Source of the DNA: Phycisphaeraceae bacterium
GTDB taxonomy: Bacteria; Planctomycetota; Phycisphaerae; Phycisphaerales; Zrk34
DNA: 64,000 nucleotides
Reading direction: 5' to 3'
Assembly: GCA_028284925.1 (NCBI GenBank)
Contig: JANQQT010000020.1
Location: 1-64,000, forward strand
Below the pieces are notes generated by a model. It was not told the DNA's origin and did no database searches. It saw only the letters and a program-made list of their open reading frames with translations. A program made the translations under genes and the position numbers. Of this stretch, positions 28,175-44,280 are shown piece after piece; within the stretch, counting starts at the first letter, position 1, and each line of letters opens with the position of its first letter.

Positions 28175-31153
28175 ATGTACGACATGCCCGAATTCCTGGT
28201 TTTTCTGATTCTGGTCTACGTGATCGCCATGCCTCTGGTAGCAATTAGGAATTGCGGTTGCGAAAGGGAAGCAAATAATGGAGATTGAGCGACGGCTATC
28301 TGACTTGAGCAAGGAATTGAAGGATTTCTTGATTGATAAGATGGCGAAAAAGACATCGAACGTTCTATCGCCTTTGGAGGCATATCCCGAATCAAAACAG
28401 GAAACGATTACGAATCGAGAGATTAGCCAAGAGGAACCGAGTACATCAGGCATAGAGAAAAAAGTAGATATTGAAGAGGTTGAGAATGCTTGGGAACCAA
28501 GCGAGACAGACCAGACGGCGCGACAACCGCCAATGTATGAAACGCAGGATGAAGTGGGGCAATGGGTACCGATCGATCTGAGTGAAGTGAGAGTTGAAGG
28601 GGAGGCGGTCAATACGGCGGACACTAAAGATTCACGGAATGGGCAACCGGCCACGATTGATGGCGTTTGGGAAGCCTCTATGGCTGAGAGTTTTCTCGAC
28701 AAGGAGGAAACATCGACCGCTGAATCCGATTTGACTCGAAAAACATCCACCGTCGAGGGTGGATTTGAAAAACTCTTAACGACTCGCGTCATTGTTTGGG
28801 CGGCGGCGGTGGCGATGACAATTGGCGGACTGTTATTCGTCCGACACATGGCGGAACGTGGGATGCTGGGTCCTCTGGCGCGCGTGTGGCCGCCTGGTAT
28901 CGGGGGACTGGTGATGGTGGCACTTTCGGAGTGGTGGAGAAACAGACAGGGGCGGATTAGTCAGGCGTTGTGTGGAGCGGGGGTGGCGATCATGTTTGGC
29001 GCGATTTTGGCTGCTTCACCGATGGTCCACAGATTCTTAGAAGACCGGTCTGCGCTCAGTATGCTGGCAGGCATGACGGTACTAGCGATTGTGCTTAGCC
29101 TGAGACACGGAATGCCGGTCGGTTTGTTGGGGCTGGCGGGCGGGTTTATCGCGCCAGCCATGATCATTAAGACGGGGCCAGCGGCGGGACAGGCTCTTGG
29201 ATACCTGTTCCTGCTGCAGTTAGGAATGGCCTTAAATTGCACGAATCAGGAGAGAGTGGTGGTGGATGAGGCTGGTCGCGGTGGCGGGTGGATATTTGGG
29301 CAGCAATCTGGCCGGTGAGCCTTATGCAGGCTGGAGAAGGCGCTTGGATCGGTATCTTTGTGCTGGCGTCGATGGGGAGCGTGGTCTTGGGAAGTTTGCT
29401 TGAAAACGCACGAAGAAACCTGAAAAACGGGGAGGATGAAACGTGGAATGATGACCGATTCAAGGCTCGCCGCGTACTAGAGTGGTTGGGGTTGGGCGGA
29501 GGTGTAATTCTACTTGCAACAACCGGCGGGATGTCGGGATTCACTTGGTTTCTTTGGGCATATATGGGCTTGTTAGGATTGGGAGGGCTTGTTTTGGGCC
29601 GCCTTCATGAGCGGTATATTGGATTGTCCATCCTCAGCGCCATTGCAACGTTGGCCATGCTATGGACATGGGATATAGGACACACGAACGGTGATATCAC
29701 AACGTTTTGCTGGGTTACAGGTGTAATGGGCGTACTCTATGATGTAGTGTGTTACTTGAATGGAATGCAAAAAGTCCAATTGCATCTGGTTTGGATTGGG
29801 ACGTGCCGCCTGGCTGGACTCGCATTCTTCTGGACAGGTTACGTCAAGACGATATTCGAAAACACTTACTGGATCTGGTGGTTGGTTGGAGGTGGAACTG
29901 CAGGACTCTATGCCGCGATCGCTGCGCTCGTTGTGCGAAAACGGGAATCGGGAAATACGTGGGGCAAAGGCAGTGAGATGCTGGTAAGCGCTGCTGGTTC
30001 GCTTCTAATAGGAACGGTATTGATTGAACTGGACAATCAATGGATCACCATCGCATGGGCGGGCATCGCAGGCGCGATTGCCATTTGTGGTAAGTGTTTC
30101 GGTATGAACCGCCTGCTGGATACGGCCATGGGCATTAGGATTGCGGCAACGATTCGGCTCGTTCTGAACCCAGCGATAATCTATTACCCAACAGACGGCA
30201 ACTTCATCTGGAACTGGATGATCTATACGTATCCGACCTTGATCGGCTCAATGGTCCTTTACGGCCGGCTATGCAGAAAACAAAACCGGTGGGATCGAGT
30301 CGGGACGTTCGACGCACTGGCGGTGATGTTGAGTTTTGCGATGGTCACGCTACTGGCTCGATATGGATTTACCGGTGAAGGATTCGGCTTAATCGGGGAG
30401 ATCACATCCGCGATCGGCCTGCTGGAGATAGGAACCTACATCAACGTCTGGCTGGGGTTGGCAACTGTGATGCTGGGGTTTGGATGGAAAAAGGACTTAG
30501 AGTCCCTTCGTTTCGGCGGCGTGGCCGCTCTATGGCTAGGGCTGGCAGGATCCGTCCTCGGACTGTGTCTGGCAATGAACCCTCTCTGGTACAGCAGCAA
30601 TGTGGGTGAAATGAAGATTGTCAATTGATTGCTCTATCTGTACGGTTCACCGTGCGTTTTTCTGTTAGCCTGCAGTCTATTCTGTAAGGAGATGCAAGGC
30701 GGATCTGTTGCTGTTCGTAGCATGAAACGGTTTGCGGGCATCGGTGCTCTTGTTATGTCGTTCGGCCTGGTAACGCTAGAGGTTCGACAATTATTTGCAG
30801 GTCCATTCCTCAATATCGGCGAGTTCACCCATGCGGAGTGGTACGCCTATTCCGCCGCATGGATACTTTTTGCAGCGCTCCTACTGGTCATCGGCATTTG
30901 TACAAAGGGAAAGGTCATACGCTGGGCCAGTCTTTCGGTCATGATGGTCGCGGTGATTAAGGTCTTTCTCCTCGACAGTGGCCACCTGGAAGGGTTCTGG
31001 CGGGTTGCCAGTTATTTCGGGCTTGGTGTCAGCCTTTTGGCCCTTGCGTATGTCTATCAAAGATATGTGTTTGCCCAGATTTCGGACGTTGACTCAACGC
31101 AGCAGGTTGAAAGTCGTACGAAGACATCTGAGGATTCCCAGGCATCCGATTGA
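28175..31153 (+). pseudogene. DUF2339 multi-spanning membrane protein, broken by frameshifts and a stop
   Basis: Four pieces in three reading frames together cover a DUF2339-type protein of about 990 residues. ATG 28175 follows an AAAGGGG ribosome-binding site and encodes the family's first membrane helix (MYDMPEFLVFLILVYVIAM). The coiled coil MEIERRLSDLSKELKDFL continues in another frame from 28278. The core VIVWAAAVAMTIGGLLFVRH and later helices run to about 29250. Here a third frame gives REWWWMRLVAVAGG, then a shift leads to the frame starting at 29288. An in-frame TGA at 30626-30628 splits off the last 174 residues, which continue with family-like helices. The lesions suggest a pseudogene; assembly or sequencing error is the alternative. 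Confidence 0.75.
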
Positions 31154-32771: not shown

Positions 32772-35765
32772 TCATTGATGGGCGCGCCGGACATTCTCAA
32801 AGTAAGTCTTGAGTTCGACGCTGTTAAATCTGGAATCCAATCCTTCAAGTCGGGAGATAATTCGCAAAATCTTCTTCGAAATGGCTTTCTTCTCCGCACC
32901 ACTGGCAGCTGCGTGCTTTCCACGCTGGACTTCCACAACCAATCGCCAAGTATCCCAGTAAATGTCCTTGAATCGACCCTTATCTAAAGGTACGCCGCGG
33001 CGATCTTTGGGTATGTTCTTTTCCAGTTTGATCAAAATCATTGAAGCCACATCCCAGTCCTGTGCACATACGTAGGCTCGAGCGAGGCCATAGACGACAT
33101 CCAATTTCTTTTGACCTTTGACACCGTCTGCGTAAACCTGGCTTTCCAGTTTCTTGAAGAGTGCTACAGCCTTTTCGCATTGGCCTGAGACGATATACAT
33201 CTCACCAAGATCATTCTGGAACGGCAAAAGATACTCATTGACCTGTTGCTCATCATCCTTGAATTTCTTCTTCGGCAGTTGTTGCCTGGCCCATTTGAGC
33301 ACATCATTGGCAAAGTCGATTCCACCGAGCGCGATTTTTTTGGCACGATCGCGAAGCTCTTTCTTATCTTCCTCTAAACGCGCGATTTCAGCATCACGAC
33401 GCAGGCGGTTAATCGTCTTCCTCGCGCCGGCAAGCATTTGGGCCGCTACAGCTCCGACAAACTTACCGTTCTCAACCCTACGAAGTTTGGCCATTACCTT
33501 CTTGGCCGCTTCAGCGTTGTTTGCTTCCTGATTGGACCTGATTTCAATTTGCCACTTGCGAATCATCAGGTTGATGTCCTTGCCGAACCGATCGTCAAAA
33601 CCGATGAACAATGCAAGGGCGACCTGAGGTTTTCGGGCAATCGTGAGTTCTATCTCCGCCATGTTCAGAATGGCCAATCCCAGCCAACCATTGATCTTTG
33701 CCTGATCCGCTCCAACGGTCTTGGCAATCGTCGCCTGCAGAACCGGTTTGGTCTTGGCGTACTCAACACGTAACTGGTTGGCAAACTTGACCTGCTGTGC
33801 GCCGCCTTGGGATGCCGCGAGATACAACGCATGGATTACCAGAAATCGACCATGCGTGTACAACTTGGACTTTTCCGAAATTTTGCCGAAGTGCTCCGCG
33901 GCTGCGGCATATTCCTGTTTGGTGATACTCAGAAACCCGTAGTTGTAGTAAACATCATCTACAAACGGGTCGAGAGGGAACTTCTCAATAAATACTTTCA
34001 TGGCCCGCTCGAATGCCGCAGCAATATCCTGATTCGCCGGATTGGCCTTATGCTCCTGCCTGCCGATGTTGACCGCGAATTTACCCGCCTGAATCGCTCG
34101 TGCCACCTGCGGGAATTTCTCCGCCAGATCCGTCCAGGCCTTGACCGCATCGACCGTATTTCCGCGACGAAAATTCACCAGCCCCAGCATGTAGTTCGCC
34201 TCGACTGCAAGGCCCTGCTGTAACCCCTTGATCGCAACCACCTTTGCCAACTCCGGAACGGCAATATCAAGATAACCTTTTGCTTTCTTCTGAAGGGCCT
34301 CTTTGCCCGATCCAACCGCGTCCTTGGCCTTGATATTCAGGGCGTTGGCTTCCAACTCAAGAGCTTTACTCCATGTAATTGCTATGAATGGCTGCGTTCC
34401 ATCAGGAAATGGAGAAGGTATTTTGTCCAGCGGCGGAGTTAACGCCTCCCGAATCCAAGTCTCCACGGCAGCCTTCTTGACCGGATCCTGAACATTCTTG
34501 TCGTTCAATAGATCGATGTAATGAGCCGTGTCATCCGACGCTACATACCGCCGATCGTAACTGAGAATCAGAAGTAAGGTGGACTTGAATAATTGCTCCA
34601 ACCGCTTCTCACCCTCACGCATCTTTTTGAGTACAGCGATGGCCTGCTCGACTACGACCTTGCGATTGGCCGCGGCGGCCTTGACGGCACTCTCCGCGCG
34701 CGTTAACGCAGCCTTCGCTTCCCTGATCTTCAACTCCGCTGCTCGAATGGCCGCGCCGTCCTTTGCCTTCTCGGCCGCTTCCTTTTCCAACTCAGCCGCC
34801 TTGAGATTTTCCTCCGCCTTTTTTCTCTGTCGAATAGGACCATCGGCCTGACGCTGCAACGCCTTCGACTTGGCCAAGTATGCCAGAAAGAGATCAAGAG
34901 GGGCGAGGCCTTCCATGGCGATGGCTTTATCGAGATTCTTTACCGCCGCCGCAGTCTGACCAATGTTGACCTGTGCTCGTCCCAAAAGAACTATCGTCTT
35001 ACCCTGCCACACGGGTCCGATTCTCTGATTTTTGGATAGCGTCCGAAGATCTCCGAGCGAATCGGCGATCACCTGCTGCTCGATTCGGCTCAATTCAGTG
35101 AGCATTGCACCGTACACACCCACACGCCCGCGAATATAGCGAAAACGAAGTTGGTGGTACATTAACTCAAAATCATCCCAGATGCCCGTGTTGACATACT
35201 TCCTCTGAAAATCCCGATCTCTCTGCATCCGACGCCCAATTTTTGAAAAGTCCAATCCCGCCTCGTCAATGACACCCAAGGCCATTCTAACATACTTGTC
35301 AAAAGGCTTGCGTTGCGCTTCAAGCTTGGGCATACCAAACTCCACAAATTCGGCAGCATTCTGATAGACATTCGGCAAAAGCTCATCGAGTAGGAAGATC
35401 GCAAAGTCCGTCGCCTTCATGGGCTTTTTGTAGTGACGTCGCAGCTCCCTGAGTTTGAGCATCTCCTGATAGGTGCTGATGACGGCCTGGGCGGTTTTTT
35501 CTTTGTCCTTAACACCCGCCTTGTCGTATTTAGCTTTGTTGAGTACGAGTTGAATTTCGAGACGCTGGATGGCATCTTTGGGAGGATTCTTCTTGAGGAA
35601 ATGCTCTAGGAGATTATCCATCTTCATTGCGCGTAATTCATCAATGAATTGCGCATCATCCAGCTTCTTGCGACGTTGCGCCTCGGCTGTATGGCAAAGA
35701 CCGCCCAAAAGTAAGGCGGTGATCATTGTTAAGAGTAGACCGGTTTTCTTAGGAAGATAATTCAT
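32772..35765 (-). CDS. Large secreted repeat protein at the end of the ExbB/ExbD/VWA cluster
   Basis: A 997-residue protein from ATG 35765 (an in-frame ATG at 35777 adds four residues). The signal peptide ends near CHTAEAQ. Most of the protein is helical and TPR-like, for example ANYMLGLVNFRRGNTVDAVKAW and YNYGFLSITKQEYAAAAEHFG. A coiled-coil stretch rich in Ala, Lys and Glu spans about residues 305-375. It is the last gene of a minus-strand cluster with a TolQ/ExbB channel, two ExbD proteins, another repeat protein and a VWA protein, with short gaps. It may be a periplasmic scaffold for that complex; this rests on gene order. Confidence 0.8.
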   Translation of the reverse strand: MNYLPKKTGLLLTMITALLLGGLCHTAEAQRRKKLDDAQFIDELRAMKMDNLLEHFLKKNPPKDAIQRLEIQLVLNKAKYDKAGVKDKEKTAQAVISTYQEMLKLRELRRHYKKPMKATDFAIFLLDELLPNVYQNAAEFVEFGMPKLEAQRKPFDKYVRMALGVIDEAGLDFSKIGRRMQRDRDFQRKYVNTGIWDDFELMYHQLRFRYIRGRVGVYGAMLTELSRIEQQVIADSLGDLRTLSKNQRIGPVWQGKTIVLLGRAQVNIGQTAAAVKNLDKAIAMEGLAPLDLFLAYLAKSKALQRQADGPIRQRKKAEENLKAAELEKEAAEKAKDGAAIRAAELKIREAKAALTRAESAVKAAAANRKVVVEQAIAVLKKMREGEKRLEQLFKSTLLLILSYDRRYVASDDTAHYIDLLNDKNVQDPVKKAAVETWIREALTPPLDKIPSPFPDGTQPFIAITWSKALELEANALNIKAKDAVGSGKEALQKKAKGYLDIAVPELAKVVAIKGLQQGLAVEANYMLGLVNFRRGNTVDAVKAWTDLAEKFPQVARAIQAGKFAVNIGRQEHKANPANQDIAAAFERAMKVFIEKFPLDPFVDDVYYNYGFLSITKQEYAAAAEHFGKISEKSKLYTHGRFLVIHALYLAASQGGAQQVKFANQLRVEYAKTKPVLQATIAKTVGADQAKINGWLGLAILNMAEIELTIARKPQVALALFIGFDDRFGKDINLMIRKWQIEIRSNQEANNAEAAKKVMAKLRRVENGKFVGAVAAQMLAGARKTINRLRRDAEIARLEEDKKELRDRAKKIALGGIDFANDVLKWARQQLPKKKFKDDEQQVNEYLLPFQNDLGEMYIVSGQCEKAVALFKKLESQVYADGVKGQKKLDVVYGLARAYVCAQDWDVASMILIKLEKNIPKDRRGVPLDKGRFKDIYWDTWRLVVEVQRGKHAAASGAEKKAISKKILRIISRLEGLDSRFNSVELKTYFENVRRAHQ

Positions 35766-35820
35766 GGGACAACTCATGTAGTTTCAAGCCGGCATGTCGA
35801 ATTTATCCGTGCAACGAGCC

Positions 35821-36330
35821 CTAATTGGCCTCGGAAAAATTGATGTTGGAATACTTGGCCCTGACGCAGGCGTTATAAACATTGACCACATGATCCCACC
35901 TTACCTGACCATCAGGCTTGATGATAATCGGGTTGTCATGGTCATACGTCGAACCGCGTCGACTCTTCAGCTCCCGGAACAAAGCACGAACGCTCGCAGG
36001 CCTTTGAGCGCGACTAATATTTGTAGTAAGCCTAAACCCTGTATTTCCCTCAACCAAAACGTTGATGTTAATGGGCTGTTCCGGCGTGTCTTTATTGGGT
36101 GTTCCCTGCCCCAACGGCAAATCGGCGGCCAAGAAGCCCTCGCCCTTGGCGAAACTGGCCGTGAGAATAAAGAAAATCAACAACTGAAAGCAGACATCGA
36201 GCATCGACGTAAGGTTCAGATCACGAATACCCTTTGGCGGAACGCGTTTGGTGTGAGACTCGTGATGAACGGTTTCGTCAACAGCAGGCTTAGTGCCAGC
36301 CTGTTGTTTTTGAGGAGGGACTTGAGCCAT
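35821..36330 (-). CDS. ExbD/TolR-family biopolymer transport protein (second copy)
   Basis: A 169-residue protein with a short cytoplasmic N terminus, one membrane helix (LNLTSMLDVCFQLLIFFIL) and a periplasmic domain. The Asp in the helix is the conserved proton-responsive residue of TolR/ExbD/MotB-like subunits. AGGAG precedes the ATG. It is one of two adjacent ExbD genes in this cluster, 62 bases apart, which are diverged from each other. With the TolQ-like gene it would form an ion-driven force generator across the inner membrane. Confidence 0.92.
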   Translation of the reverse strand: MAQVPPQKQQAGTKPAVDETVHHESHTKRVPPKGIRDLNLTSMLDVCFQLLIFFILTASFAKGEGFLAADLPLGQGTPNKDTPEQPININVLVEGNTGFRLTTNISRAQRPASVRALFRELKSRRGSTYDHDNPIIIKPDGQVRWDHVVNVYNACVRAKYSNINFSEAN

Positions 36331-36392
36331 ATTATTGCTCCTACATTAATACGAATGAGGCGATGAATGAGTTTGCCGGGCGTAGGCGAAAA

Positions 36393-36875
36393 TTAGTTCC
36401 GTTTTTCCATCAGTGTGATAACATTAATCTTTGAAACACCCGCTTGGACAATCGCTTTCATCACGGGCTGCACGTTGACATAGTGAATACGAAAATCACT
36501 CCGTAGGTCGACTTCCAGTTTCTTTCCTTCATCGTCCGCAAACTTCTTTTCCTTTTCGATCAGGGCTGTGAGTTTTTCGTATTCGTTCGTTTTGATTCGT
36601 GAAATACCCACGCGAAGCTCGCCGACATCGCCACTCTCATCAAACTTACTGGTATCGCTTTGTTTGCGAGGGGGAACAATATTGACGACGATACGCTTGC
36701 GTTTACCGGTAATTTCCGCCTGGGGCTCTTCTGGTGCCGGCGGAACGAGCTCGGGAAGTTCAGCGGTGGTGAAGTTGGTCACAAGGATGAAGAAAATGAT
36801 CAACTGAAACACAATATCCATCATGGATGTCATGTTGAGCTGTATCGGTGAAGGTTCTCTTCGTTTGGTTTTCAT
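36393..36875 (-). CDS. ExbD/TolR-family biopolymer transport protein (first copy)
   Basis: A 160-residue protein with a basic N terminus, one membrane helix (MTSMMDIVFQLIIFFILV) carrying the conserved Asp, and a C-terminal periplasmic domain ending VSKINVITLMEKRN. It is encoded directly after the TolQ-like channel gene. The C-terminal half (DLRSDFRIHYVNVQPVMKAI) fits the ExbD fold of strands and helices that dock in the envelope. The gap to the second ExbD is short, so both may join the same complex as a heterodimer; this is inference. Confidence 0.92.
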   Translation of the reverse strand: MKTKRREPSPIQLNMTSMMDIVFQLIIFFILVTNFTTAELPELVPPAPEEPQAEITGKRKRIVVNIVPPRKQSDTSKFDESGDVGELRVGISRIKTNEYEKLTALIEKEKKFADDEGKKLEVDLRSDFRIHYVNVQPVMKAIVQAGVSKINVITLMEKRN

Positions 36876-36963
36876 GGCGCGTTTCCATCGAAAAGGTAGA
36901 TGGGAAATTCTTCTTACATCAAGCGACGCAACACGCCGCCGTTGACGAATGCGTCATGCCCGA

Positions 36964-37803
36964 TCAGGAGGGTCTTGGCTTCGGAGGAGCGGCAGGCTGA
37001 GGCTTGGGACCGGACGGCTTGGCGCCGCCACCACTTGACGAGCCGCCGGCAGCGGTCTTCTTCGCACCAGGAGCGAACTGGCTAATCAACTCTTCGGATT
37101 GCACCATCACCTCGACCATGTTGCCGTCGATCTTGTTTCGAATCAACGCTGCAGCGGCAACCGCCGGAATACCAACGATCAGACCCCAGAACGTAGTGAC
37201 GAGAGCGGTGGAAATACCATCCGCCAAGTCGGCTGGATTGGGCTGGCCGCCTTTGGTCACGATCACCTGGAACGCCTCGATCATACCGTAAACCGTACCG
37301 AACAGACCGATCATCGGACCCACGGCACCTAGAACATTCAAAAGCTCGATAGATCGAACTCGTTTATTACCCAGAAGGTCGGCCTGTTCCTCAATGGCAC
37401 GCTCCATGGCGGCGTAACCGTTCGAAGCCTGCGAAAGAGTCGCGTGCATGACCTGACCGAAAGTCGTGTCATCCATCTCAGCAAACTCGATGGCATCGCG
37501 AAAGCGTTTCTCTTCGAGCAGATCGGCATAATGATCCACCGTGTCGCCAGGCATGATGTTGTCACTTCGATTTGCAAGTGCATACATAATGACCAACGCC
37601 ATCGTGACCATCGACATGAGGATAAGAATCCACAAGACGATCTTGCCAAGCGCGCTTCCCGACCAGAAGAACATTTTGAACGTGCTCTCTGTGGTGACCG
37701 TACCACTACCGTCACCCTGAGCTAACGCAGGACTCGCGAAGAACAGGACGAGGAAAAGGGCGGGCAGGATGACCCAGCACATTTGATTCAATCGTAGACG
37801 CAT
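36964..37803 (-). CDS. TolQ/ExbB/MotA-family proton channel subunit
   Basis: A 279-residue inner-membrane protein. An N-terminal signal-like helix ending ASPALAQG precedes the three typical helices: LGKIVLWILILMSMVTMALV, GAVGPMIGLFGTVYGMIEAF and ALVTTFWGLIVGIPAVAAAAL. GLFGTVYGMIEAF and the Thr residues of the last helix are hallmarks of TolQ/ExbB. The C terminus is a Gly/Pro/Lys-rich tail. AAGGAG precedes the ATG. It would form the stator pentamer around ExbD dimers and couple the ion gradient to work on the envelope. Confidence 0.94.
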   Translation of the reverse strand: MRLRLNQMCWVILPALFLVLFFASPALAQGDGSGTVTTESTFKMFFWSGSALGKIVLWILILMSMVTMALVIMYALANRSDNIMPGDTVDHYADLLEEKRFRDAIEFAEMDDTTFGQVMHATLSQASNGYAAMERAIEEQADLLGNKRVRSIELLNVLGAVGPMIGLFGTVYGMIEAFQVIVTKGGQPNPADLADGISTALVTTFWGLIVGIPAVAAAALIRNKIDGNMVEVMVQSEELISQFAPGAKKTAAGGSSSGGGAKPSGPKPQPAAPPKPRPS

Positions 37804-37892
37804 ACCGTCTCCTTGGATTTTTACACGGAGGTTAAGGGAAACAAACCAGGTTTTTCGTATTGGGAGTTGCCTGGTGTGGATTCATGGTGGGT

Positions 37893-38942
37893 TTACTTGA
37901 TCTTTTTCGCTTTGAGGGCCTCAAGCCGCGCTTTCATGTCTGCGGCGATCGAGGGTTCAGCGGTGATACCGGACGTTCTTAGCCCTCGTTCCCAAATGGT
38001 CTTGGCATGCTGAGGCTGCCCAAGAACCATAAAGGTCTTTCCCGCCTCAAGATGCGCCAACACCATCGTCTTCACGCTGGTTCTGGGGAAATGGACCACG
38101 ACTCGGAGATAAGCAATCGCCGCGTCTTTGTGCTGTTTTAGTGCCGCCAGACAATATCCTTTTTGAAGTAGCAGCTTGGACTGTGACCCCACGCCCGACT
38201 GCAAGTCCGCGTTTACCTTTTTCAACGCGTCGGCCGCCTTACCTTCGCTGATCATCTTCAGAATCTGATCCTGATTCGCTTCCGCGGATCGAATCAGAAC
38301 TCCCGCACCCCGCAATTTGGACTTCAATGGATCATTCTTGGGCGGCGCCAAACCTCTCGCACGACGTGCCAGTGACTTCAGCATTGCGCGAACAGTGGCA
38401 TCTCCCACTGCCGCAGCTTCGTCTTCGATCTGTTTGGCAACCTGCGCCTGTTGCGCTTCCGTTGCAGGCTTTTTGGTCGGCGCAGCTAACTTCACTAATT
38501 CAGACTGACTCACCTGCACAAGGGAAGCAAACCTTGCATATGCTTCGGAAATCTTGTTTGCCCGCTCCAAAGCTACGACCAGCTTGGCGCCATAGATGAT
38601 TTTCAGGTACTTCTCGGACTCCGTGGCATCCGTATACACCTTCTCATACTGAGCCGCGGCCGTCGCATAATCCTTGGCCTCAAAAGCCTTGTCCCCAGCA
38701 TCCAGTTGGGGGTATTTTTCCAGCCGAACCGCCTCAATTGACTCAAGGTACACCGAGCGTTCACCGGCCACTGATTCGTAAACCAGCTTACCATCGCGAA
38801 TGGACTTGATGCGCACCTTGTATTTGACGCCCTTGACAATGATTGTCTGAGCGGCGGCCGACTCGACGAAACAAACCGCCGCAAGCAGCATTACGATAAG
38901 AATGACTGGACTGTACCTCATTCGCCTCTCGTCTCTCATCAT
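37893..38942 (-). CDS. Secreted repeat protein translated in coupling with the VWA protein
   Basis: A 349-residue protein whose ATG (38942) overlaps the TGA of the VWA gene as ATGA, so translation is probably coupled. A signal peptide ends SAAAQ. A small beta-rich domain follows (IIVKGVKYKVRIKSIRDGKLVY), then TPR-like helices (FEAKDYATAAAQYEKVY and ALKQHKDAAIAYLRVVVHFP). The overall form fits a periplasmic or membrane-associated adaptor. Family is not known. Its position between the VWA protein and the TolQ-like channel suggests it belongs to the same machine. Confidence 0.85.
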   Translation of the reverse strand: MMRDERRMRYSPVILIVMLLAAVCFVESAAAQTIIVKGVKYKVRIKSIRDGKLVYESVAGERSVYLESIEAVRLEKYPQLDAGDKAFEAKDYATAAAQYEKVYTDATESEKYLKIIYGAKLVVALERANKISEAYARFASLVQVSQSELVKLAAPTKKPATEAQQAQVAKQIEDEAAAVGDATVRAMLKSLARRARGLAPPKNDPLKSKLRGAGVLIRSAEANQDQILKMISEGKAADALKKVNADLQSGVGSQSKLLLQKGYCLAALKQHKDAAIAYLRVVVHFPRTSVKTMVLAHLEAGKTFMVLGQPQHAKTIWERGLRTSGITAEPSIAADMKARLEALKAKKIK

Positions 38943-40027
38943 CTTCCCACTTCCGATGGATCAACAAACTTGTAAGTTCCGCCATGCCCTTTGGCGATGT
39001 CACGTAGCGTGTTAAGCGGATCCGGGTAAAGAAACTGAATCGTGTTAATTTTGGCTTTACGTCCTTTAACACCGGGCGTATTCAGTTTTGCAACCGTATC
39101 AAGCAGTTCATTACGATTGACTTCATACTTGCCGCGACCCGTAATGTTATCAGAAAGTATAAACATCAACTGAGGACGCGGCTGCAACTGCAACGCTGAC
39201 TTGATGGCCTCAACGGGGTTCGTCTGACCTCGTGGGACAATGTCATCCCCATCAAGCCAGTGCATGACCGCTTGTTTGTTAGCATCCGTCAACGTAATCC
39301 ATGAATTTCGATTTCCTCCAACCGGACAACGCAACGCTGCCCCATTTTGGAAGAAATAGATTTGCGTACGCTGTGGCTCGCGCATCCCCCGCAGCGTGTT
39401 CTTTAACTCCGCAATCACAAAAGGCATGGTATCGATCAATGAGCCTGAGGCGTCCACCACAAACACAATGTCATTCGCATTGCCTCCCGTACCATAAAAG
39501 TTCGCACCGATCCCGCCGCCCTTGCCGTTGTTAGCGCCATATGGCGCTAACTTACCTCCGCCCCCACCGCCGCTATTTCCTATCAACGCCTGGGTTGTAT
39601 CCAGTTCGCTCTTCTTATTATTAGGTGTCTCAGTCTCACTGGTATTCTCAGCCTCAACTTTCTGTTTATTCTGCTGTTTTTGCTGTTCCTTGTCCTGCGA
39701 TTCAGCAAGTGAACCACCGGGGTTCTGGCTCAGTTTTGCGACAGGGATAATGTCCTCCGGATCCTTCTCCGGGACTTTCCAGATTTTCCAGATCAGGAAC
39801 ATTGCCAATACCATTACGGCCACGTGCGCCAAGAGTGAAATCATCCAAGGCATAACGACCTTCATGACATCGTTCACCTCACCCACTACCCCTTCATCTT
39901 CCTCATCGTCAAATTCATCCTCATCATCAATATCCGGGGCCGTCGAACTACTTGGAGCAGGCTTGGAGGAAGAAGGGCGCGGGGGATTACCAGGACCGGG
40001 TTGATCTGCAAAGAGCCAAAACCACAT
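38939..40027 (-). CDS. VWA-domain inner-membrane protein, first gene of the ExbB/ExbD cluster
   Basis: A 362-residue protein. A Pro/Ser-rich then very acidic N terminus (residues about 10-48) precedes one membrane helix at about 61-83. Next comes a Gln/Lys-rich segment and a poly-Gly linker (about 100-180). The von Willebrand type A domain starts near residue 187. Its metal-ion-dependent adhesion site is complete: D192-x-S194-x-S196, the Thr of GQTNP, and the Asp of FILSDN. AGGAGGTC before the ATG is a strong ribosome-binding site. The domain would sit in the periplasm and bind a ligand through a divalent metal. As first gene it may define the cluster's promoter. Confidence 0.92.
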   Translation of the reverse strand: MWFWLFADQPGPGNPPRPSSSKPAPSSSTAPDIDDEDEFDDEEDEGVVGEVNDVMKVVMPWMISLLAHVAVMVLAMFLIWKIWKVPEKDPEDIIPVAKLSQNPGGSLAESQDKEQQKQQNKQKVEAENTSETETPNNKKSELDTTQALIGNSGGGGGGKLAPYGANNGKGGGIGANFYGTGGNANDIVFVVDASGSLIDTMPFVIAELKNTLRGMREPQRTQIYFFQNGAALRCPVGGNRNSWITLTDANKQAVMHWLDGDDIVPRGQTNPVEAIKSALQLQPRPQLMFILSDNITGRGKYEVNRNELLDTVAKLNTPGVKGRKAKINTIQFLYPDPLNTLRDIAKGHGGTYKFVDPSEVGR

Positions 40028-40558: not shown

Positions 40559-41911
40559 TCAGGCCAATAAGTCGTTCACCAGGCCTGCGCTGTCGGCAAA
40601 CCGGCCTCTCTTAACCCCCATCGCCTTTGCCTGTGTAAGCCAGAGATTCGCCAAAGGCGTCTTATCCCGACAATGCAAGTGCCCGAGGCTTTTTAACCGC
40701 CCTCCGCCCCCGCCCGCTACGACTATCGGCAGATCGTTATATTGATGCGTCGCTCCGTCGCCCAGACCTGAACCGTAGGTAAAAATGGTATTGTCCAACA
40801 GTGATGTCCCATTCGACTCCTTGATTCCGTCCATCTTTTCCAGCAGATATGCGAATTGCTGCATATGAAAACGGTCTACCTTGAGCAAATTCTTCGTGTG
40901 CTTCTTCTGATTGTGGGACATGCCGTGATGACTCATAGGTTTCTTGAACAAACCGTCAAACATATAGGGTGTATCCCATCGCTCTGGACCGACCATAAAC
41001 GTTGCCACATTCGTCAAGCCAGTCTGTAGAGCAACGACCATTAGATCGCCCATGAGCCGAATATACTCTCCTCGCGGCAGACGAGCGGCGACCGGCTCCT
41101 TAAAAGGCACCTTCGCAATGGAGCTTTTGACCTTCTCCATCCTGTCCATTCGCTGCTCGATTGCGCGAATAGCTTCAAAATACTCCGCAAACTTTTTCTG
41201 ATCATCCGAGCCCAACTCGCGCCTTAATGACCGGGCGTCTTCAAGAACGAGGTCCGTAATGTTCCGGAATTTCTTGTCTTCCTTCGTGCTGAACAACCTT
41301 CGATACGCTTTGCGCGGATCGCGCATCGATGGCGCCACATGCCCGGTTCCGTACCAAGAAACATTGTCAAAGTGAATAGACTCTTTGTTATCCCGATGAC
41401 TGTTGCAACTGAACTCCAGCGTGCGGAATGGGGAATCCTTACCCACGTAATCCGCTACGATGTGATCCAACGTCCTATCCAGAGGCCATGCGGAATTTCT
41501 TATGGAATACGGTGCGGCACTGCTCAAAAAGCACGATGCACACTGAGAATGGACATCTACACCATTCTGATAGGTCCGGTCCATACCGGTGATGAGCGTG
41601 ACCTTGTTTTTCATCTTCACCAACGGCTTGAGCGTCGGCGTCAGATTCAATGGCTGAGGCCCCAGCTTCAATTTCGCACCCTCAACCGCAGGCGTCGACG
41701 GACCCTGAAAAGCCGGAATCGGTACTTTCTCTTCCTTTGGAAAGAAACCGCTACGCACGACGCCGATCGGCACATAGAAGAACGCCAGTCGCTGTGCAGG
41801 GGAGGTGGCAGCAACGACTTCCGCTGGAGCCGCGAGACTTTCAAGATTCGGCAACGCGAGCATCGCGCCTCCTGCCCCCTGTAAAAACATACGTCTCGAA
41901 AAGGCCTTCAT
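40559..41911 (-). CDS. DUF1552 domain protein (Tat signal)
   Basis: A 450-residue member of the planctomycete DUF1552 family, related to DUF1501/sulfatase-like proteins. The N terminus SRRMFLQGAGGAMLALP is a twin-arginine signal. Conserved blocks are FFYVPIGVVRSGFFP, TLITGMDRTYQNGVDVHSQ and MSHHGMSHNQKK. The start ATG overlaps the stop TAA of the upstream DUF1592-type gene as TAATG, so the two are translated together. These pairs are thought to act on the outside of the cytoplasmic membrane; their reaction is not established. Confidence 0.93.
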   Translation of the reverse strand: MKAFSRRMFLQGAGGAMLALPNLESLAAPAEVVAATSPAQRLAFFYVPIGVVRSGFFPKEEKVPIPAFQGPSTPAVEGAKLKLGPQPLNLTPTLKPLVKMKNKVTLITGMDRTYQNGVDVHSQCASCFLSSAAPYSIRNSAWPLDRTLDHIVADYVGKDSPFRTLEFSCNSHRDNKESIHFDNVSWYGTGHVAPSMRDPRKAYRRLFSTKEDKKFRNITDLVLEDARSLRRELGSDDQKKFAEYFEAIRAIEQRMDRMEKVKSSIAKVPFKEPVAARLPRGEYIRLMGDLMVVALQTGLTNVATFMVGPERWDTPYMFDGLFKKPMSHHGMSHNQKKHTKNLLKVDRFHMQQFAYLLEKMDGIKESNGTSLLDNTIFTYGSGLGDGATHQYNDLPIVVAGGGGGRLKSLGHLHCRDKTPLANLWLTQAKAMGVKRGRFADSAGLVNDLLA

Positions 41912-44016
41912 TACTCGCTTTCCTTCCTGGGATTGTACTTATGCAAGAATGGCCGGCTCAAAATTACATACTTGATCATTGGCCGCATCCGGTACTTTGC
42001 GGCAATTGTCCTACGCACAATCTTGGCGACCGCAGGATCATCCGCCGGCTCTAACTCACGCCCCAGAGCGTAAGATAGCAGATGTTTAGCAAAGGCCCGG
42101 GTAAATCGGTCTTTCTCAGCAAGAATCGCGTTTTTGAACTCCACAGGCGTAGAAAATTTATGCTTATTGAAGAGAACACCCCCTGAATCGACCTTTCTCC
42201 CGTTTTCGTACCGATCGCGCCACACACCCGTCGGACCATAATTTTCCAAAGCAAACCCCAGTGGATCGATTTTCGCATGGCATCCCCGGCAATCCTCACG
42301 TTTGCGATGCAATTCAAGCCTCTCTCGAAGGGTCATTTTTGCCGAATCGGGCGTATTGGCTTCAGGCAAAGGCGGAACATCCGCTGGGGGAGGTTTCGGT
42401 GGGTTATTAAATATCACCGTCGAAATCCACGCCCCGCGCGTTATCGGTTTTGTACGGCCAGGGCCGGATGTCATTGTCATTACCGCTGCATTGGTAATCA
42501 CACCCCCCTGCCGTCGATCCTTGATCGGCACGCGACGAAACGGAATCACCACCGGCGAACCGGAGTTGCCGCGTCCCTTGGCAAACCAGGTTTCCAGCAA
42601 TCTACTTCGATAGGTAAATTTCGGATCAATCAGCTCGATAATCGAACGATTTTCAACGTAAATCGTTTCGAAAACCAACAACGGTTCGAGAGCCATGTGC
42701 ATGCTGGCCATGTATTTACCAAAATAAAACCCCTTGAACCGCTTTCGGTTCGGCAGGGATGAGATAATCCGGTCCAGTTGAAGCCACTGGGTGGGGAAAT
42801 TGTCACAGAAACGCTTCATCCGACGGTCATTCAACATACGATCTAACTGCCCATTCAGCACTTTCGGGTCGCGCAGCTTTCTTTCAGCGGCGAGTTTTAA
42901 CAAGGTCTGATCCGGAATACTTCCCCACAGAAAAAACGATAAGCGCGAGGCCAACTCAAAATCATCCAGTTGCTCCACCTTTGCAGTCACTCCCGCCTGA
43001 TCGAAAAGGTATAGAAAACGCGGTGACGCCAAAACTCCTGACACTGCGGTTTTCATGCTTTCCGTAAAGGATTCGCCAGACTTGATCTGTGATAGGACGA
43101 AATCCACATAACGCTCAAGCGTGGTCTCGTTCACTATCCGTCGAAACGCACGTGTAAGGAACAGTCTTAGCCGCCGCCTAACCACCGCCTCTATCTTTTC
43201 ATCGTCCTTTGGCTGCGCAAACAAAACGCCCCATTTTCCACACGTCTTCGGTCCAAAATCACGGCTATCCACTATCGAACGGCTGAGCTTGAGAAAGGCC
43301 TCCATCAAATAAGGCGACATTGAAAGATGATCACCCCGATTGTCAAAACCGTGTTCCGCTCTTAGATCCTGTGGAAACGGTCCCACCCCTGCAAGCCGAC
43401 GTTCAATCAATTGCGATTTCCCCAACGGACGATTCCCAACCCTTAACGTTCCAGGCATCTTCCCGATATCCGGACGAAAATAATTGCCGTATTCCCGCAT
43501 GATGCTCTCGGGCAAGGGGAAAATCGTTACCTTCATATCCAAGAGATCACCCACCGCGTTGCTGTACTGAAACCGATTCATCCGTCGAATGGGCGTGCGC
43601 GGAATTGCTTTCTGTGCGTCGACTGCGGCGTGGAGCATCGTGCGAAGCCCCAAAACCAGCTTCTTTCGCCTGGAATCCTCCAGAGGCCTTTCCTTCTCCG
43701 GTGGCATGTCGCCGAAATCCAATGCCTCGATTAATTTCTTCATGAGTTTTGGACTTCGAGATAGATCTTCCCCACTCTTAATCTTCGAAAGATCAACCTT
43801 CCCCTTTACTTTGCCCTTTTCGCCATGACACTTAATGCAGTTTTGGATAAAGGTTGGTCTGAGTAAGTCATCAAATGTATTTTCAGCCAAAGCATGATAG
43901 CCAACCAGATAGAGGAACAAAGGTAAGGTCCGCCAAGGCCATCTCGTGTGGCCTTTCAAACGGCGCCGGTTGGAAGAGCGTTTCTCCTGGCAAACTGACC
44001 TTATCAGCCTCCGCAT
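41911..44016 (-). CDS. DUF1592-family cytochrome-type protein (DUF1587/1592/1588/1585)
   Basis: A 701-residue protein from ATG 44016, with GAGG ten bases upstream (a TTG at 44022 would add two residues). A basic N terminus is followed by a signal or anchor helix (LPLFLYLVGYHALA). A cytochrome-like CIKCH motif follows near residue 60, then DUF1587 (RRMNRFQYSNAVGDLLDM), DUF1592 (LASRLSFFLWGSIPDQTLL), DUF1588 (GVITNAAVMTMTS) and DUF1585 at the end. A second CRGCH motif lies in LHRKREDCRGCHAKIDPLGF. The order is typical of planctomycete proteins of about 700-900 residues. It overlaps the DUF1552 gene and is probably its partner. Confidence 0.92.
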   Translation of the reverse strand: MRRLIRSVCQEKRSSNRRRLKGHTRWPWRTLPLFLYLVGYHALAENTFDDLLRPTFIQNCIKCHGEKGKVKGKVDLSKIKSGEDLSRSPKLMKKLIEALDFGDMPPEKERPLEDSRRKKLVLGLRTMLHAAVDAQKAIPRTPIRRMNRFQYSNAVGDLLDMKVTIFPLPESIMREYGNYFRPDIGKMPGTLRVGNRPLGKSQLIERRLAGVGPFPQDLRAEHGFDNRGDHLSMSPYLMEAFLKLSRSIVDSRDFGPKTCGKWGVLFAQPKDDEKIEAVVRRRLRLFLTRAFRRIVNETTLERYVDFVLSQIKSGESFTESMKTAVSGVLASPRFLYLFDQAGVTAKVEQLDDFELASRLSFFLWGSIPDQTLLKLAAERKLRDPKVLNGQLDRMLNDRRMKRFCDNFPTQWLQLDRIISSLPNRKRFKGFYFGKYMASMHMALEPLLVFETIYVENRSIIELIDPKFTYRSRLLETWFAKGRGNSGSPVVIPFRRVPIKDRRQGGVITNAAVMTMTSGPGRTKPITRGAWISTVIFNNPPKPPPADVPPLPEANTPDSAKMTLRERLELHRKREDCRGCHAKIDPLGFALENYGPTGVWRDRYENGRKVDSGGVLFNKHKFSTPVEFKNAILAEKDRFTRAFAKHLLSYALGRELEPADDPAVAKIVRRTIAAKYRMRPMIKYVILSRPFLHKYNPRKESE

Positions 44017-44280
44017 TACCAAAAAACCTCGTTATTGACCCTTGTGAGACCTGAAAGAAACGCATTCCGGCCGAAAAGGTGGATATATGTGAGCTTATCT
44101 TATGATACCACCCATTGATAACCCCAACAAACGTTTTTCCCTTGCACTAGGGAACCCTTGATATGTGTTCGATCCCGAAAGGCATAATCGACGGGATTGT
44201 AAGACGCACGTGCCGCCGCTTTATTTTATTGCCCGATACGTGTACGATCCGGGCGGACAAACCTGCTGGAGCTTTCTTGC

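Follow-up and report, generated by a model that had tools for sequence, protein, structure and literature searches.

The window analysed here, a stretch of 64,000 nucleotides from the Phycisphaeraceae bacterium contig JANQQT010000020.1, carries on its minus strand a run of six open reading frames (ORFs) from 40027 to 32772, encoding, in the order of transcription, a VWA protein, a TPR protein (TPRs), ExbB, two ExbD proteins (ExbD1 and ExbD2) and a long TPR protein (TPRL). All six ORFs lie in the place and order that a preliminary description of this DNA had given, including the 4-base ATGA overlap between VWA and TPRs, which points to translational coupling; the distances along the six genes are -4, 89, 88, 62 and 43 bases. 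The first gene (38939–40027) encodes a putative force transducer of 362 residues, having an acidic N-terminal tail, one transmembrane helix, a disordered linker of about 100 residues and a VWA domain. It is followed by TPRs (37893–38942; 349 residues), with a signal peptide, a small beta (SH3-like) N-domain read from the sequence only, and TPR repeats; by the ExbB/TolQ-type pentamer subunit (36964–37803; 279 residues); by ExbD1 (36393–36875; 160 residues) and ExbD2 (35821–36330; 169 residues), whose Asp20 and Asp45, respectively, are predicted to carry the protons; and by the secreted TPRL (32772–35777; 1001 residues). Pfam confirms MotA_ExbB (PF01618) in ExbB (2.2e-25) and ExbD (PF02472) twice, in ExbD1 (1.1e-14) and ExbD2 (5.6e-18), and the VWA_3 and TPR_2 matches are weak but consistent, under or close to the gathering score. 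The top NCBIfam models are TolQ for ExbB and TolR for both ExbD proteins, with scores far under the equivalog cut-offs. From related loci, the host is placed in Planctomycetota, class Phycisphaerae.

The same set of genes recurs among relatives. Forty stretches of 11–20 kb from relatives and from the host's own genome, plus 54 loci from named genomes, were searched with family-specific hidden Markov models, resulting in 65 non-redundant clusters with both VWA and ExbB. The order VWA-(VWA)-(TPRs)-ExbB-ExbD-ExbD-TPRL is found in most of them, TPRL being mostly the last gene, and the commonest versions are VWA-ExbB-ExbD-ExbD-TPRL (21 clusters) and VWA-TPRs-ExbB-ExbD-ExbD-TPRL (16 clusters), while another cluster group has tandem VWA genes, with two copies and, once, three. 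Overlaps of 4 bases are common at the VWA/TPRs, VWA/ExbB, ExbD/ExbD and ExbD/TPRL junctions, and the recurrence of one order in so many clusters is far beyond chance. As seen by coordinates, VWA immediately precedes ExbB, with both on one strand, in 56 of the 61 genomes of the order, and only the family f5, discussed below, scatters the genes; in G007, the cluster is interrupted by a contig end. This pattern also bears on the idea of a Zorya-like defence system with a MotA/B-type motor, which is hardly credible here: Zorya uses a 5:2 motor as well, but defence islands do not share the vertical, order-wide conservation of this cluster, and PADLOC matches none of the six proteins, as is also the case for PHROGs.

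In several genomes of more distant planctomycete classes, the same plan is kept as VWA, a protein of about 390 residues, ExbB, ExbD, ExbD and a protein of about 890 residues. The profile of the latter aligns with that of TPRL over 807 columns with a probability of 99.7%, although TPR repeats may inflate such scores. This version, paralogous or more distant (L173–L175, L179 and L185), is present in Phycisphaerales and other classes, and several genomes hold both. Moreover, the host genome has a second motor cluster on contig C165 (L081; 8662–14565), with ExbB, a single ExbD, a TPR protein of 884 residues and, as the last gene, a VWA protein of 616 residues, whose transmembrane helix also bears Ser-x3-His (SIFLH). 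On contig C135 (L079; 1–7973), ExbB and two ExbD genes come right after a gene that is truncated by the contig end and encodes at least 1968 residues, with TPR and galactose-binding-like domains.

Regarding the VWA protein, its sole membrane helix, PWMISLLAHVAVMVLAMFLIW, contains the residues Ser64-x3-His68 (SLLAH; 39824–39838), which correspond to the leading Ser and His of the SHLS motif with which TonB (S16, H20) and TolA (S18, H22) dock on ExbB/TolQ, as seen by cryo-electron microscopy (cryo-EM) (PMC12215075). When 76 cluster VWA proteins were aligned, three rows without the histidine turned out to be truncated or mis-started, and among the remaining 73 anchored proteins His68 is invariant (73/73) and Ser64 is kept in 67, in a protein of low background conservation (mean column identity of 28% in an alignment of 23 VWA sequences). 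The second half of SHLS, its Leu and Ser, lacks conservation among the VWA proteins, as it does in many TonBs (PMC12215075). The histidine is also present in the second VWA copies of tandem pairs, and planctomycetes of other classes have anchored VWA proteins with Ser-x3-His. The motif is missing from two VWA proteins that have no motor nearby (L055 and L131), but other stand-alone anchored VWA proteins have it; therefore, it marks the anchored family and not adjacency to a motor alone. The orientation of the helix only leans towards a cytoplasmic N-terminus by the positive-inside rule (45 versus 19 of 73), and no TonB_C or TolA match was found in the protein by Pfam, the VWA domain standing instead.

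The helix contains no Asp, and thus the protein is not of the pore-inserting TPH-vWA type. Members of that TPH-vWA/TolQ family, the second one described in PMC12204202, are similar in that a VWA protein is encoded with a TolQ-like gene; however, they lack ExbD and SHLS and carry a pore Asp. VWA proteins acting as stator-pore partners and unrelated, co-transcribed chaperones of the Bat/MoxR-VWA kind are both known beside motors or TPR proteins, but either role is very improbable for the VWA protein of the window, given its SHLS-type Ser and His and the two bona fide ExbD proteins; moreover, the conserved genes of the cluster include no MoxR AAA+ ATPase.

In the AlphaFold2 (AF2) model, the transmembrane helix (residues 48–83) is followed by low-confidence stretches (97–111 and 122–177) and by a confident VWA domain (185–357; 38957–39475), which matches solved VWA domains of the Protein Data Bank (PDB), down to an E-value of 1e-8. 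A strand-like motif (IIPxAxLS and variants) is located 23–25 residues past the histidine in many VWA members. In the window it reads IIPVAKLS (residues 93–100; 39728–39751), 25 residues past His68, and resembles the 'motor box' of TonB/TolA, which is defined after the transmembrane helix and thought to touch the ExbD/TolR dimer (PMC12204202). The pattern [VIL][VIL]P occurs 14–40 residues past the histidine in 33 of the 73 proteins, 29 of these at 23–25, compared to a mean of 10.5 and a maximum of 20 in 500 shuffles; the AF2 monomer has no strand at this motif. The metal ion-dependent adhesion site (MIDAS), which had been described as complete, is so in the window (D192-A-S-G-S196, T269 and D293), but not in all relatives: DxSxS is conserved in about 97%, Ser or Thr at position 269 in 66 of 76, and Asp at position 293 in 43 of 76.

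In ExbB, the pentamer subunit of the motor, the pore threonines T170 and T204, together with S64 and P213, are each invariant in the 65 clusters; T170, T204 and P213 align with T148, T181 and P190 of Escherichia coli ExbB, and S64 with Ser34, the latter match resting on a weak ungapped stretch. Ser34 and Pro190 are part of the TonB-contact network of the E. coli protein, according to cryo-EM (PMC12215075). The transmembrane Asp is kept in all ExbD proteins (119/119), and in a maximum-likelihood tree the first- and second-position ExbDs form two groups of 53, with a support of 100/100 and no exchange between them, so that ExbD1 and ExbD2 represent two separate, ancient clades. As both lineages have been maintained together downstream of a single ExbB gene, they are best explained by a putative heterodimer of ExbD1 and ExbD2 in the pore, in line with the preliminary description, with alternative homodimers as the less favoured arrangement.

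TPRL, which also carries a signal peptide, is modelled by AF2 as one continuous, all-helical solenoid (mean pLDDT, the predicted local distance difference test, of 87), while its fold matches in the PDB are generic TPR scaffolds with low TM-scores, uninformative on function. A lipobox was matched in 9 of 53 TPRL members and, since most lack it, the protein is probably soluble in the periplasm.

Taken as a whole, the six genes are read as one trans-envelope, proton-driven motor of the 5:2 type with its own force transducer, with a probability of roughly 0.78; from the genes, synteny, motifs, ExbD lineages and predicted folds, we infer how it may assemble, transmit force and find its partners. 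ExbB would form a pentamer, with one ExbD1 and one ExbD2 as an asymmetric dimer in its pore, and the VWA protein would use its Ser-x3-His helix to dock laterally on ExbB, like TonB and TolA. A docking of this kind was obtained by Williams-Jones et al. 2025 (PMC12204202), whose AlphaFold3 models place the vWA transducer helix on the motor. Proton flow would then turn or shift the ExbD dimer, which would engage the strand motif just past the VWA helix, and the flexible linker of about 100 residues would give the VWA domain enough range to pull on a partner in the periplasm or the outer membrane, with TPRs and the long TPRL solenoid as likely adaptor and scaffold. The earlier suggestion of the VWA protein as a substitute for the missing energy transducer is thus supported by its Ser-x3-His helix, disordered linker, strand-like motif and conserved synteny.

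Some observations weigh against this motor. The TonB-contacting Trp38 of ExbB is replaced by Ile, Val, Met or Leu (M68 in the window), and TPRs is present in about 40% of the clusters, hence not obligatory. The family f5 (six genomes; L037, L039–L043 with L169–L172), alone among the families compared, separates VWA-TPRs at one locus from ExbB-ExbD-ExbD at another, the latter sitting behind a gene of about 500–680 residues. In addition, no outer-membrane target has been identified.

Concerning the physiological role, the distribution of the known transducers has to be considered. TonB, TolA and Pal had been noted as absent, which holds for the neighbourhood. In the 92%-complete assembly of the host, no TonB_C domain was found, whereas two plug domains of TonB-dependent receptors are present, and seven of the eight relatives of the same family have TonB. 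Therefore, the local absence of TonB is by itself weak evidence. Across the order, TonB_C is found in 30 of the 61 genomes and plug-domain receptors in 31. For the TolB N-domain (TolB_N), the count of genomes in which it was found is 0 of 61 in the order and 4 of 148 in the whole phylum; neither TolB nor Pal is encoded in the cluster. The TolB model TIGR02800 was set aside as uninformative, having only below-cut-off matches to PD40 propellers, in every genome, so that distant TolB propellers may still exist. A large reduction of Tol-Pal in Planctomycetes was also described by Leonard et al. 2022 (PMC8871954). Of the transducers found in this order, the VWA motor is therefore the one that most genomes keep.

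This distribution favours envelope maintenance of the Tol-Pal kind as the best guess for the role, still a tentative one: nearly all genomes of the order keep the VWA system, whereas half lack TonB and none yielded the TolB N-domain. Less likely is an import function similar to that of TonB, where the VWA protein would supply energy to a so far unrecognised transporter of the outer membrane that admits large substrates. Uptake of large polymers is known in planctomycetes, and both the motor and its docking signature are as in TonB, but no receptor gene is located in or beside the conserved cluster; genes for TonB and plug receptors lie apart from it in half of the genomes, and the VWA system is kept with or without them. 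Further behind comes an adhesion or surface-motility machine similar to Agl-Glt, with the VWA domain as an adhesion or force tip, as put forward by Williams-Jones et al. (PMC12204202). VWA domains do adhere, and the linker has a weak similarity to GltG (E-value of 0.055), which looks like low complexity; however, the clusters lack other Glt components, the linker of about 100 residues tethers the VWA domain to the inner membrane, and the system is near-universal in an order of varied lifestyles, which makes such a machine improbable. As an extension of the Tol-like role, and somewhat more speculative than it, the VWA motor with an obligate ExbD1/ExbD2 heterodimer might take over the function of Tol-Pal in Phycisphaerae, if not in planctomycetes at large. 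These bacteria are thought to divide independently of FtsZ, and the motor might drive the invagination of their envelope or maintain their outer membrane. A loose lead to its function may come from Rhodopirellula baltica, where high salinity induces two candidate members of the system, exbB RB12053 and exbD RB12055 (PMC2754498).

Compared to TonB-ExbBD, the system shares the ExbB/ExbD motor, the docking Ser-x3-His and a flexible linker, but it has a VWA domain in place of the C-terminal domain of TonB, two ExbD lineages, no receptor in the cluster and the substitution of Trp38. With TolQRA-TolB-Pal, it has in common a TolQ-type motor, a Ser/His transducer and a neighbouring gene for a TPR protein, which in Tol-Pal is CpoB/YbgF; unlike Tol-Pal, its cluster lacks the TolA domain, TolB and Pal, and the TolB N-domain was not found in the 61 genomes of the order. 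The system had been regarded as little described; this does not hold, since a vWA force-transducer family, defined from Tichowtungia aerotolerans, was already proposed by Williams-Jones et al. 2025 in Mol Biol Evol (PMC12204202). Its members bear the SHLS motif, lie beside TPR, tolQ and paired tolR genes and occur in Planctomycetes and other bacteria of the Planctomycetes–Verrucomicrobia–Chlamydiae group, and no deletion phenotype is known for them, according to these authors. Compared by described features, the locus shares the N-terminal transmembrane helix with Ser/His, the linker of about 100 residues followed by the VWA fold and the TPR/tolQ/two-tolR synteny. However, the VWA gene is upstream of the motor genes here and downstream in that description; there are two TPR genes, one of about 900–1000 residues, and tandem VWA copies occur. 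On the features tested, with the exception of gene order, the locus fits as a well-documented member of this family. What is added here is the order-wide fixation, the strict ExbD1/ExbD2 orthology, two TPR partners, of which the TPRL solenoid belongs to the core, the tandem VWA copies, the incompletely conserved metal site and the occurrence without TonB and TolB.

The surroundings of the cluster vary. In the window, it is flanked upstream by DUF1552- and DUF1592-type genes (40559–44022) and downstream by EF-hand and M48 peptidase genes, none of which recur beside the cluster among the loci compared. The upstream neighbours are specific to each family, such as a membrane protein of about 765 residues in f1 and a protein that looks DoxX-like by eye in f3, and are therefore not considered part of the system. 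A seemingly conserved small ORF upstream of VWA (85 residues in the window) was rejected, as its sequences vary between loci and look spurious. Promoter and terminator scans gave no excess over shuffles. Elsewhere in the window (28278–31153), a DUF2339-type membrane protein is seemingly split over three ORFs (28278–29318, 29288–30628 and 30629–31153), perhaps by frameshifts or sequencing errors.

For the biology of the order, the VWA motor is the main candidate for coupling the proton-motive force to the outer membrane, as it is near-universal there, unlike TonB and the TolB N-domain. In addition, its two strictly separate ExbD lineages suggest a natural heterodimeric 5:1:1 motor, which bears on whether the ExbD/TolR dimer works asymmetrically, and the residues named here, S64 and H68 of the VWA protein, D20 of ExbD1 and D45 of ExbD2, make the proposed mechanism directly testable.

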